NCBI GenBank assembly: GCA_035570235.1
Contig: DATMML010000012.1
Span: forward strand, 1 to 64,000
Length of the DNA stretch: 64,000 nucleotides
Reading direction: 5' to 3'
Source of the DNA: Vicinamibacteria bacterium
GTDB lineage: Bacteria > Acidobacteriota > Vicinamibacteria > Fen-336
The stretch's first letter is position 1; the number at the start of each line of letters is the position of its first letter. Shown here piece after piece: positions 13,774 to 17,524 of this stretch. The notes below the pieces were generated by a model. The model worked only from the letters and a program-made list of their open reading frames with translations. It did no database searches and was not told the DNA's origin. The translations under genes and the position numbers were made by a program.

Positions 13774-14766
13774 TCATCCCCAGAGCGGGAGCTGGACGGC
13801 GGGCGCGCGGGGAGCGGGCTCGACCGGGAACCCATCCTGAAGTCCGTGCTTCTCGCGGAGCCGCCCAATGCGGCCCCGGAGCCAATCGCGGTACCGCCCC
13901 TTCAAGTAGACGTGCCCGGCATAGGCCCGCTCGTAGGCCTCGAGGTGCTGGGGGAACGCTCCCGCTAGCCAGCGCAGGTACTTCTCCCGTGTGGGGGAGC
14001 GCAGGAAGAGGATGTTCCAGAACATCCGTTTCACCCCCGCCGCGGCCACCCGGCCGAGCAACTCGTCCAGGTCCGCTTCCCGGTCCGTGAGCAGGGGCAG
14101 GACGGGGGCGAGGGAGAGGCCGGCCACGATTCCCGCTTCCACCAAGCGGCGCAGGACCTCGATGCGCACCTCCGGGGGCGGGGCCCACGGCTCCAGGGCG
14201 CGCAGCAGCGGGGCGCGCGGCGAGATCAGGGAAACATGGACGGAGAGCGAGGAGCGTTCATGGATGCGGAGCAAGAGATCGAGGTCGCGGAGCACGAGCG
14301 CGCCCTTGGTGGTGATCGAGAGCCGCAGGCCACGCTGGCGGGCGACGAGCTCCAGGAAGCGCCGGGTGACCTTGAACTCCGCCTCGCCCGGCTGATAGGG
14401 ATCGGTAGCGGTGCCCAGGGCGACGAGCTCACCCCGGCCGCGGACCACGCTCAGCCGCCTCGCGGTCTCAGTCTCCCCCCCCGACTTGGCGTAGACCGTG
14501 GAGTGGAACTCGTCCCCTCCCTTGATCCCCATGAACTCGTGGGTGTAGGCGGCGTAGCAGTAGCGGCAGCCCATGGCGCAGCCGCGATAAGGGTTGACCG
14601 TCCAGCGGAAGGGCATGCGCGGGGAGTCGCAGCGGTTCAGGAGGGACCGGGTCTCAAGCTCGCGGTAGGTCACCCCGCCGCGCTCGGAGAGCGCCTCCCG
14701 GCCCATGAGCGGAGCCAGATGAGGGGCGGGGATGCCAGGCTGGAACATACACGCGACTTTCGCCAT
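13774..14766 (-). CDS. Radical SAM protein of the SplB/PA0069-like family
   Basis: Cytoplasmic radical SAM enzyme of about 330 aa. The cluster motif is GCAMGCRYCYAAYTHEF, with the CX3CX2C cysteines near residue 70. It is preceded by RMPFRWTVNPYRG, characteristic of the Rv2578c/PA0069 group related to spore photoproduct lyase. Downstream sequence includes VALGTATDPYQPGE and a C-terminal region rich in Arg and Trp. The reaction of this group is not established, and a DNA-repair role is only suggested by the SplB resemblance. The ATG at 14766 is preferred over the longer frame from 14853, which would overlap the divergent aldo/keto reductase leader. The ribosome site is weak, so the start is uncertain. 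Confidence 0.8.
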   Translation of the reverse strand: MAKVACMFQPGIPAPHLAPLMGREALSERGGVTYRELETRSLLNRCDSPRMPFRWTVNPYRGCAMGCRYCYAAYTHEFMGIKGGDEFHSTVYAKSGGETETARRLSVVRGRGELVALGTATDPYQPGEAEFKVTRRFLELVARQRGLRLSITTKGALVLRDLDLLLRIHERSSLSVHVSLISPRAPLLRALEPWAPPPEVRIEVLRRLVEAGIVAGLSLAPVLPLLTDREADLDELLGRVAAAGVKRMFWNILFLRSPTREKYLRWLAGAFPQHLEAYERAYAGHVYLKGRYRDWLRGRIGRLREKHGLQDGFPVEPAPRAPAVQLPLWG

Positions 14767-14824
14767 ATCTTCGCCACTGGGATACGTGCTGTCAAGGGCC
14801 CTCCTCGACACGCCCCAAGGATGC

Positions 14825-15937
14825 GTGGGATCCTCGGGTCCGGAGGAAAGCACGGCGAGCGGGCGCGCGACGGCGGCGGGGACGGCTACCTACGCTCGGA
14901 GATTCCCGGAGAGCGCGGCCCGGGGCCACTTCCGGGAGGCTCTCGGTCTCCATCTCTCCTCCGTCGGCCTCGGCACGTACCTGGGGCGAGCGGACGCGGC
15001 CGGCGATCAAGCCTACCGCGAGGCCATCGCGGCCGCGGTAGCGGGTGGGATCAACGTTCTCGATACCGCCGTCAACTACCGGGAAGAGCGCAGCGAGCGC
15101 GCGGTGGGCGCCGCTCTCGCGGACCTCGCCGCCGCGGGTTTTCCCCGCGAGGGGGTCGTGGTCGCGACGAAGGGAGGCTACGTTCCCGCGCGCGACCCCG
15201 AAAAGTACTTCGAGAAGCAGATCGTTGGGCGGGGACTCGCGCGGGCCGAGGATTTGGTGGCGGGCTGCCACTGCATGGCTCCGGGCTACCTGCGCCAGCA
15301 GTTGGACAGAAGCCTCGAGAACCTCGGTCTGGGCTCCGTCGACATCTACTATCTCCACAATCCCGAACAACAGCTCGACGAGGTGGAGCCCGCGATCTTC
15401 GGCGTGCGCATCCGGGCCGCTTTCGAAATGCTCGAGGAGGAGGTGGGGCGGGGCCGGGTCGGACACTACGGCACCGCGACCTGGAACGGGTACCGCATTC
15501 CCCCTGGCCCGCGCGCGCTGTCGCTGGAGGCCCTCGTGGCCCGGGCGCGCGAGGTGGCGGGCGAGAGCCACCACTTCCGCGTGGTCCAGCTCCCGTTCAA
15601 CGTAGGGATGCCCGAGGCGCTCGTGGCCCGGACCCAGGTCGTGGCGGGCGCGACAGGCTCCCTTCTGGAGGCGGCGGCCGAGCTGGGGGCGATCGTGATC
15701 GGCAGCGCCCCCCTCCTCCAAGGCCGGCTGGCCCGCGGCCTGCCGGCTGGCCTGGCCGTGACCCCTGGCCTCGCGACCGATGCCCAACGGGCTCTCCAGA
15801 TCGCCCGCTCTGCGCCCGGCCTCACCACCGCGCTCGTGGGAATGGCCCGCCTCTCCCACGTGCGCGAGAACCTAGCCGTCCTGGCCGTGCCTCCCCTGGC
15901 CCCCGCGGCCGTCGCCGGGCTTCTGCCCTCTCGCTAA
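14825..15937 (+). CDS. Aldo/keto reductase
   Basis: TIM-barrel NAD(P)H oxidoreductase of about 370 aa. The AKR residues appear in order: NVLDTAVNYREERSERAVG (Asp and the catalytic Tyr), VVATKGGYVP (Lys) and SVDIYYLHNPEQQLDE (His). The N-terminal segment ..HFREALGLHLSSVGLGTYLG matches bacterial AKRs of unknown substrate. The start is uncertain: a GTG at 14825 has AAGGA close upstream, and the frame is open to 14732. It is transcribed away from the radical SAM gene on the minus strand. The next gene follows at 45 nt (ATG 15983). The substrate is unknown. Confidence 0.8.
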   Translation: MGSSGPEESTASGRATAAGTATYARRFPESAARGHFREALGLHLSSVGLGTYLGRADAAGDQAYREAIAAAVAGGINVLDTAVNYREERSERAVGAALADLAAAGFPREGVVVATKGGYVPARDPEKYFEKQIVGRGLARAEDLVAGCHCMAPGYLRQQLDRSLENLGLGSVDIYYLHNPEQQLDEVEPAIFGVRIRAAFEMLEEEVGRGRVGHYGTATWNGYRIPPGPRALSLEALVARAREVAGESHHFRVVQLPFNVGMPEALVARTQVVAGATGSLLEAAAELGAIVIGSAPLLQGRLARGLPAGLAVTPGLATDAQRALQIARSAPGLTTALVGMARLSHVRENLAVLAVPPLAPAAVAGLLPSR

Positions 15938-15982: not shown

Positions 15983-17524
15983 ATGCCCACCGCATCCCCA
16001 CTCGGCGAGGTCCTCGCTCGTCACACCCGGGAGGGCGAGCTCTACTCGAAACTTGGCAACGACCGGGTGCGCTGCGTGGCCTGCGGCCACCGCTGCCTCA
16101 TCCCTCCCGGCCAGCAGGGCATCTGCAAGGTGCGCTTCAACGAAGGGGGCACGCTGCAGGTGCCCCACGGCTACGTGGGGGCGCTCCAGCTCGACCCTGT
16201 GGAGAAGAAACCGTTCTTTCACGCCCTCCCCGGCTCCTCCGCCCTCTCTTTCGGCATGCTGGGATGCGACTACCACTGCGGCTACTGCTTCGTGCCCGGC
16301 ACGGAGGTGGAAACGCGCGGGGGCCCGCGCATGATCGACGCGCTCTTCCGGGGCGGGGAAGCCGTCTTCGAGAGCGGCGGGGACGCGGTGGCCGTGCGTC
16401 CGGGCTTGGAGGTCCTGACTCACCGCGGGCGGTCGCGCCCGGTGCAGGGGGTCTTCCGGCACCACTACCGCGGACCACTCATGGCCATCCTTCCGCGGGG
16501 GGGCACCGAGATCCACGCCACTCCCGACCACGAGTTCCTGGTCTCGGCGCGCGCGGCCCGGGGCCTGCCCCCTCCCTCCTTCTTCATGCCCGCCTCTGCC
16601 CTGACCGCGGAGTTCGATCTCCTGGAGCCCTCCGCGGACGGCGCCTTCCGGACGCGGCCCATCGAGGACACCCGGATCCTGAGTTACGACGGTCCCGTCT
16701 ACAACCTGGAAGTGGAGGAAGACCGCACCTACCTCGTGCAGGGGGCGGCTGTCCACAACTGCCAGAACTGGCTCACCTCGCAGGCGCTGCGCGACCCCAA
16801 GGCGGTCTCCCTCCCCGAGGAGGTCTCTCCCGCCGCGCTGGTGGCGCTGGCCCGAAAGCACGGAGCCCGCATCATGACCTCCACCTACAACGAGCCCCTC
16901 ATCACGAGCGAATGGGCGGTCGAGATCTTCCGCGAGGCCAAGGCGGCGGGCCTCGTCTGCTCCTACGTCTCGAACGGCAACGCCACCCCGGAGGTCCTGG
17001 ACTACATCCAGCCCTTCGTCTCCCTTTACAAGGTGGACCTGAAGAGCTTCCGCGACCGGCATTACCGGGAGCTCGGGGGGACCCTGGAGCGGGTGCTGTG
17101 GACGATCCGCGCCCTGCACGAGCGGGGCTTCTGGGTGGAGGTCGTCACCCTGACCGTCCCCGGCTTCAACGACTCGGATGAGGAGCTCGCCGAGATCGCC
17201 CGCTTCCTGGCCTCGGTCTCCCCCGACATCCCCTGGCACGTGACGGCGTTCCACCAGGACTACAAGATGACGGACCCGGAGAACACGGGGGTGGCCACTC
17301 TGCTACGCGCGGCCGAGATCGGGGTCCGGGAGGGCCTGCACTTCGTCTACGCGGGCAACTTGCCGGGCCGGGTCCGGAACTGGGAGAACACGTACTGTCC
17401 GGGCTGCTCGGCCCTGCTCATCGAGCGGTACGGGTTCCGCGTGCTCGCGAACCGGATCTCGCAGGGGCGCTGCCCCGACTGCGCACGGACGATCCCCGGC
17501 TTCTGGTCCGCCCCCGTCGCCTGA
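15983..17524 (+). CDS. AmmeMemoRadiSam-type radical SAM enzyme interrupted by an intein
   Basis: The precursor is 513 aa. After removal of residues 102-259 (the intein) a 355-residue PflA-like radical SAM protein remains. Extein features: an N-terminal Cys-rich segment CVACGHRCLIPPGQQGICKVRFNEGG read across two motifs, then FGMLGCDYHCGY, followed after the intein by CQNWLTSQAL. This gives the cluster motif CX3CX2C with Cys95, Cys99 and Cys260. Further family segments are TSTYNEPLITSEWAVE, VSNGNATPEVLDYI, YKVDLKSFRDRHYR and a C-terminal CPGC...CPDC pair. Such enzymes occur with AMMECR1 and Memo proteins; neither partner is in this window, and the reaction is not established. A TATACT hexamer at 15958-15963 may be the -10. 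The ATG at 15983 fits the usual N-terminus better than 15944. Confidence 0.88.
   Translation: MPTASPLGEVLARHTREGELYSKLGNDRVRCVACGHRCLIPPGQQGICKVRFNEGGTLQVPHGYVGALQLDPVEKKPFFHALPGSSALSFGMLGCDYHCGYCFVPGTEVETRGGPRMIDALFRGGEAVFESGGDAVAVRPGLEVLTHRGRSRPVQGVFRHHYRGPLMAILPRGGTEIHATPDHEFLVSARAARGLPPPSFFMPASALTAEFDLLEPSADGAFRTRPIEDTRILSYDGPVYNLEVEEDRTYLVQGAAVHNCQNWLTSQALRDPKAVSLPEEVSPAALVALARKHGARIMTSTYNEPLITSEWAVEIFREAKAAGLVCSYVSNGNATPEVLDYIQPFVSLYKVDLKSFRDRHYRELGGTLERVLWTIRALHERGFWVEVVTLTVPGFNDSDEELAEIARFLASVSPDIPWHVTAFHQDYKMTDPENTGVATLLRAAEIGVREGLHFVYAGNLPGRVRNWENTYCPGCSALLIERYGFRVLANRISQGRCPDCARTIPGFWSAPVA
16286..16759 (+). mobile_element. Mini-intein (158 aa) in the radical SAM cluster motif
   Basis: An in-frame protein-splicing element without a homing endonuclease. 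Block A is CFVPGTEVETRGG, with nucleophile Cys1 (residue 102 of the precursor). Block B is HATPDHEFLV, with Thr180 and His183 in the TxxH arrangement. Block F is DGPVYNLEVEEDRTYLV. Block G is AAVHN followed by Cys+1, giving the penultimate His and terminal Asn. The block F position that is often His reads Arg here. Base composition matches the host gene, so the insertion looks old or ameliorated. Exact excision joins ..HCGY to CQNW.. and regenerates a continuous radical SAM motif. Length and blocks fit known mini-inteins (roughly 130-160 aa). Confidence 0.9.

Follow-up and report, generated by a model that had tools for sequence, protein, structure and literature searches.

The window, that is the whole 64,000-nt stretch of the Vicinamibacteria bacterium contig that was analysed, carries an uninterrupted reading frame of 513 aa at 15983..17524 on the forward strand. 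The encoded protein matches the NCBIfam profile TIGR04337 of the AmmeMemoRadiSam system radical SAM enzyme (248.3 bits; cut-off 220) and the Pfam radical SAM profile PF04055 (67.6 bits), which bears out the AmmeMemoRadiSam-type host that had been proposed for this amrS-like gene. The TIGR04337 match is divided into two stretches by an insert at 16286..16759 (+), which corresponds to residues 102-259 (158 aa). The N-extein (15983..16285, +; 101 aa) ends in GCDYHCGY and holds Cys95 and Cys99 of the cluster motif, with Cys99 at position -3. The C-extein (16760..17521, +; 254 aa) begins with CQNWLTSQAL, and its first residue, Cys260, is both the third cluster cysteine and the putative +1 nucleophile. 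At the upstream junction, TGC GGC TAC TGC (16277..16288, +) encodes Cys99, Gly, Tyr and then Cys1 of the insert, so that Cys99 and Cys1 form a candidate disulfide pair. An aldo/keto reductase gene (14732..15937, +; PF00248, 88.6 bits) ends 45 bp before the amrS ATG and is given as context only; a scan for promoters and terminators around the amrS gene found none. An intein-free Rv2578c-like radical SAM protein with the motif CAMGCRYC is encoded at 13774-14853 (-), some 1.1 kb before the intein gene; NCBIfam has a model for intein-bearing radical SAM proteins of the Rv2578c type.

Removal of residues 102-259 converts the TIGR04337 match into one stretch (residues 21-352) with 266.4 bits and brings Cys95, Cys99 and Cys260 into a CX3CX2C motif. 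The original prediction, that excision restores a radical SAM protein with these three cysteines as the cluster motif and Cys260 at +1, is thus upheld at the sequence level. The computed masses are 56.5 kDa for the precursor, 17.2 kDa for the intein and 39.3 kDa for the predicted spliced product of 355 aa, the last slightly above the 37-39 kDa anticipated. In a comparison of 60 related genomes, most AmrS orthologues have an empty site. This empty site is exact: some 20 intein-free orthologues match the precursor to residue 102 and again from residue 260 with contiguous coordinates of their own, in agreement with the predicted boundaries of 16286 and 16759. Orthologues from the same family share up to 79% identity with the C-extein.

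The insert is a mini-intein by profile and by predicted fold, as originally proposed. Three intein profiles match over their cut-offs, namely Pfam Intein_splicing (PF14890, 36.1 bits against 35.8), TIGR01445 intein_Nterm (28.8 against 24.5) and TIGR01443 intein_Cterm (17.3 against 15.6). The AlphaFold2 model, built with 38 aligned sequences, has a pLDDT of 90.7 and a pTM of 0.86, and a Foldseek search against the PDB identifies a HINT fold (best E 5.5e-10, TM 0.73). Almost all of the best 50 PDB matches are inteins (PolB1, VMA, RadA, CDC21, KlbA, DnaB and RecA), with HINT domains of the bacterial-intein-like and hedgehog types making up the small remainder; the search also recovered the redox-trapped DnaE intein 3nzm. 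Cys1 of block A lies at 16286, the TxxH of block B is TPDH at intein positions 79-82, and block G reads AVHN followed by Cys+1, with the penultimate His present. Block F (VYNLEVEEDRTYL) is degenerate, as YNLEVEEDRTYL has Asn for the Asp of YDL and Arg147 at the position of the His of its relatives. The four blocks that had been predicted are therefore intact for A, B and G and not for F. Since the block F Asp and His play an assisting part in splicing and are not constant across inteins, they were not treated as strictly defining class-1 membership. No endonuclease is present in the 158 aa, and the alignment gap to full-length inteins spans the whole endonuclease.

The YNLEV of block F is common to bacterial intein-like and pretoxin-HINT domains, and PF13403 Hint_2 also matches the insert weakly, as would fit a HINT domain that performs N- or C-terminal cleavage instead of splicing. 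This reading is very improbable, because Cys+1 is present, the insert interrupts a conserved catalytic motif precisely and in frame, relatives have an exact empty site there, homologues at the same site carry homing endonucleases, and the insert falls into one clade with inteins.

Two further inteins are encoded in the source genome, a mini-intein in DnaB (L034, C97:60077) and a LAGLIDADG intein in a topoisomerase VI subunit B-like protein (L035, C99:6014).

About 40 homologous inteins, nearly all bearing a homing endonuclease, occupy the same cysteine in AmrS and in one or more further radical SAM proteins. A five-intein alignment was used to scan GTDB genomes and yielded 53 loci; 44 entries were delimited, a number that includes the window and near-duplicates from a scan of the phylum. 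The scan patterns V[SA]NCQN and LLGYYCAEG favour full-length copies that lack the penultimate His, so that mini-inteins like that of the window are under-counted. The hosts include Acidobacteriota, Chloroflexota, Bipolaricaulota, Rokubacteria, Omnitrophota, Armatimonadota, Gammaproteobacteria (Peristeroidobacter), Falkowbacteria, Nitrososphaerota, Micrarchaeota and Calditenuis. All members are inserted after CX3CX2 and before the third Cys, with a Cys at -3 and a C-extein that begins with CQN; L193 and L194 have an additional intein ahead of the second cysteine. Cys1, Cys-3 and Asn/Cys+1 are found in all members; TxxH is missing from one copy only, which is truncated. Most are 400-468 aa long, and one full-length relative matches LAGLIDADG_3 (PF14528, 45.9 bits) and, weakly, a helix-turn-helix. 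Short versions are found in Chloroflexota (L229, 185 aa) and in archaea (L193, L194, L264, L266, L267 and L271). This third-cysteine group of radical SAM inteins is widespread and apparently undescribed.

The full-length inteins L145, L152, L170, L052 and G010 share the insertion cysteine and the CQN C-extein with the window intein. The splicing domains of the full-length inteins in AmrS and PflX-like hosts are about 30-42% identical to it. These relatives are about 290 aa longer owing to a LAGLIDADG endonuclease, have the block F His and mostly lack the penultimate His, whereas in the window intein the endonuclease is absent, block F has an Arg and the penultimate His is present. In the other tabulated members block F resembles VYNMEVEEEHTYL and has His at the position of Arg147; Arg is found in the window only. 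The Asn in place of Asp is nearly family-wide. Among the copies read, the penultimate His is restricted to the window, L161, L164, L227 and L229. The family thus seems to have shed either the block F His or the penultimate His, and the window copy the opposite one from most. This pattern calls for caution on splicing efficiency and is suited to a clean mutational test.

In a tree of splicing domains with SufB and 2-oxoacid oxidoreductase inteins as outgroups, the radical SAM third-cysteine inteins, including that of the window, form one clade (99/96). The window intein lies near the base of this clade on a long branch (1.8-2.3). On sequence grounds it is best described as an endonuclease-free, fast-evolving member of the third-cysteine family. 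The SufB inteins of Acidobacteriota (L041, L042 and L062) are LAGLIDADG inteins with a +1 Cys and the C-extein CTAP. In Chloroflexota (genomes G669 and G915), L235 and L236 are inserted at WCPG/C.../CGDFG in a 2-oxoacid:ferredoxin oxidoreductase beta-like protein, where the Cys-X-X/Cys site should be an iron-sulfur cysteine.

Among 193 genomes of the class, an AmrS intein was found in the window genome and in one relative of the same family (G010) only. The G010 intein is inserted at the same site and contains two LAGLIDADG-like motifs, and the G010 contigs end within its endonuclease. A split intein in G010 was considered and rejected, as the two pieces at the contig ends abut inside the endonuclease with few residues missing. 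A scan of 396 genomes of the phylum added three full-length AmrS inteins. No nearer relative of the window intein was found in the phylum scan (396 genomes) or the class scan (193 genomes). Recent loss of the endonuclease from a G010-like intein was not supported: the exteins are 80% identical and the inteins 36-37%, and AU tests disfavour the grouping of the window intein with G010 (p 0.023) and with the AmrS inteins of Acidobacteriota (p 0.009). Because the branch is long, the AU result against a G010-like origin is taken as a caution and not as proof. The window intein may have been acquired separately at the site, or it may descend from an old lineage whose evolution sped up once the endonuclease was lost. 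No AmrS intein was found among the viral contigs, where the matches read were unrelated inteins in terminases, methyltransferases and similar proteins. Ten plasmid records matched, of which the AmrS-like ones are short and, as read, intein-free.

Two of the three phylum genomes also carry (loci L052 and L061) a homologous intein in a second radical SAM protein, which by sequence reading is probably COG1313/PflX-like. The junction is GRCNLKCVF followed by C in both, and AN followed by CQNFDIS where the C-terminal side is present. That homologous inteins occupy the corresponding cysteine in another type of radical SAM protein suggests cross-paralogue spread. Full-length inteins at the third cysteine of COG1313/PflX-like proteins (GSGTIFF..CNLRCVF/CQN) were observed in L052, L061/L189, L173, L183, L185, L171 and L172.

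A mis-joining of the intein to amrS during assembly is the least probable of the alternatives. The source genome is a 138-contig draft and the contigs of G010 break inside its intein, but the reading frame is kept on both sides of the window intein, the gene lies on a 128-kb contig, and the extein junction is exact, as in about 40 other loci. Moreover, intein and exteins are alike in GC content at the three codon positions (0.74/0.51/0.90 against 0.64-0.68/0.47/0.87-0.96).

The exteins of the window gene are under normal constraint. In the extein tree, the window sequence is placed within its own family on a short branch (0.16; median 0.23). Against five of six relatives, pairwise dN/dS lies at 0.21-0.24; the sixth, L009, gives 0.38, and its values in other comparisons are mostly high too. 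The source genome has one copy of amrS and encodes the AmmeMemoSam A and B partners over cut-off (C83:80680-81186 and C83:79827-80627); the two partner genes adjoin each other on a different contig from amrS. The short branch, the low dN/dS, the single copy and the encoded partners together suggest that the organism still depends on the host enzyme, in which case splicing would be required. Functional, spliced AmrS is thus probably made in the host.

The competing view is that the intein is decaying and no longer completes splicing after loss of the block F His, with AmrS dead or surviving as cleaved fragments. It draws on Arg147, which replaces a His found in every other tabulated member, on the long intein branch, which is compatible with relaxed constraint, and on copies elsewhere that appear decayed. 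We consider it unlikely, since the exteins are constrained and on a short branch, no second AmrS copy is present, the predicted fold is confident, and Cys1, TxxH, the penultimate His, Asn and Cys+1 are all intact, the penultimate His being kept where most relatives lack it. The apparently decaying AmrS inteins are L153, L156 and L157, which have lost block A/B by truncation, lost the radical SAM motif and acquired a frameshift, respectively; these defects could also be draft-assembly errors.

The archaeal class of L193 (genome G543) includes AmrS proteins with two inteins three residues apart, before the second and the third cluster cysteines, in the layout GC-NWL-[intein]-C-RY-[intein]-C-QN. 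Both inteins are found in L193 (3434-4591), L258-L262 and L270, and probably in truncated or partial form in L194/L263. An intein before the second cysteine only was observed in L265, L268 and L269, with longer copies in L274 and L276, and before the third cysteine only in L264, L266, L267, L271 and L273. When the double insert is modelled, two HINT-like units emerge (mean pLDDT 77.9). The first of these inteins has its second-best match, after IF-2, in the NCBIfam intein model for Rv2578c.

The novelty of the insertion site, which the original prediction left as a question, is answered in part by the homologous inteins at the same site in many phyla and by a precedent in MoaA. MoaA is a radical SAM enzyme, and the work on the intein of Pyrococcus abyssi MoaA is reportedly that of Callahan et al. 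in 2011. A disulfide between Cys-3 and Cys1 is reported to block splicing of this intein (PMC10663303, PMC3922620). Like the window intein, it has a radical SAM host and a Cys at -3 able to pair with Cys1, and its Cys-3 spacing would fit insertion between the second and third cluster cysteines. It differs in belonging to the molybdenum cofactor biosynthesis family of an archaeal hyperthermophile, and redox control is reported for the MoaA intein and is a matter of analogy for that of the window. NCBIfam curates two further intein-containing radical SAM families other than AmrS, NF038136 (Rv2578c family) and NF045703 (tetraether lipid synthase Tes); judged by its profile coordinates, NF038136 may have its insert at the third cluster cysteine or directly beside it. 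MoaA, the Rv2578c family and Tes are thus already known examples of radical SAM enzymes with inteins. The SufB inteins (M. tuberculosis SufB, PMC8891592; L041, L042 and L062) resemble that of the window in being class-1, with Cys+1 and an iron-sulfur host protein, but have a different site and host and form a clearly separate clade. In the open-access literature searched, no mention of an AmrS intein was found.

Taken together, the insert is very probably a class-1 (Cys1/Asn/Cys+1) mini-intein that splices itself from the AmrS precursor, an endonuclease-less member of a LAGLIDADG family that has specialised in the codons flanking the third cluster cysteine in radical SAM genes. In the class-1 pathway, Cys1 forms a thioester, the N-extein is transferred to the +1 residue and Asn cyclises, with the F-block and G-block His both helping cyclisation (PMC8891592). 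Translation of the window gene would produce a 56.5-kDa precursor whose third cluster cysteine lies 158 residues away from its place in the motif. After folding of the intein, Cys1 would take the N-extein as a thioester and hand it to Cys260, and cyclisation of Asn158 would release the 39.3-kDa enzyme. Cys99-Gly-Tyr would thereby be joined to Cys260, with the junction peptide ...CGYCQNW (GCDYHCGYCQNW) and an intact CX3CX2C. Because the insertion lies between the second and third cluster cysteines, the +1 nucleophile is itself a cluster ligand; because CX3CX2C exists only after splicing, so would the [4Fe-4S]/SAM site.

The window precursor has the MoaA-type arrangement Cys99-Gly-Tyr-Cys1, imposed by the host motif. 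A disulfide between Cys99 and Cys1 could arrest the precursor in an oxidising environment, and by analogy with MoaA, splicing may be favoured under reducing conditions. Conservation of Cys-3 is no evidence for such control, as it is dictated by the radical SAM motif. A broader and decidedly tentative proposal is that radical SAM enzymes have a general intein hot spot at their third cluster Cys, and in some archaea at the second as well, and that the inteins there, with or without endonuclease, are kept as post-translational redox locks. The cluster site would be assembled by splicing only once the Cys-3/Cys1 disulfide is reduced. The window intein would then be a domesticated, endonuclease-free lock whose Asn cyclisation has moved from the block F His to the penultimate His.

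Inteins that employ an iron-sulfur ligand as a splicing nucleophile open to experiment the long-standing question of what inteins do in oxygen-sensitive enzymes: they may be mere parasites, or they may be switches that keep the enzyme back until its surroundings become reducing. Natural variants for such a test are at hand in the family, whose members carry or lack the endonuclease, have the block F His, the penultimate His or both, and are inserted in two kinds of radical SAM host; one archaeal class further provides motifs with a single intein alongside motifs with two.
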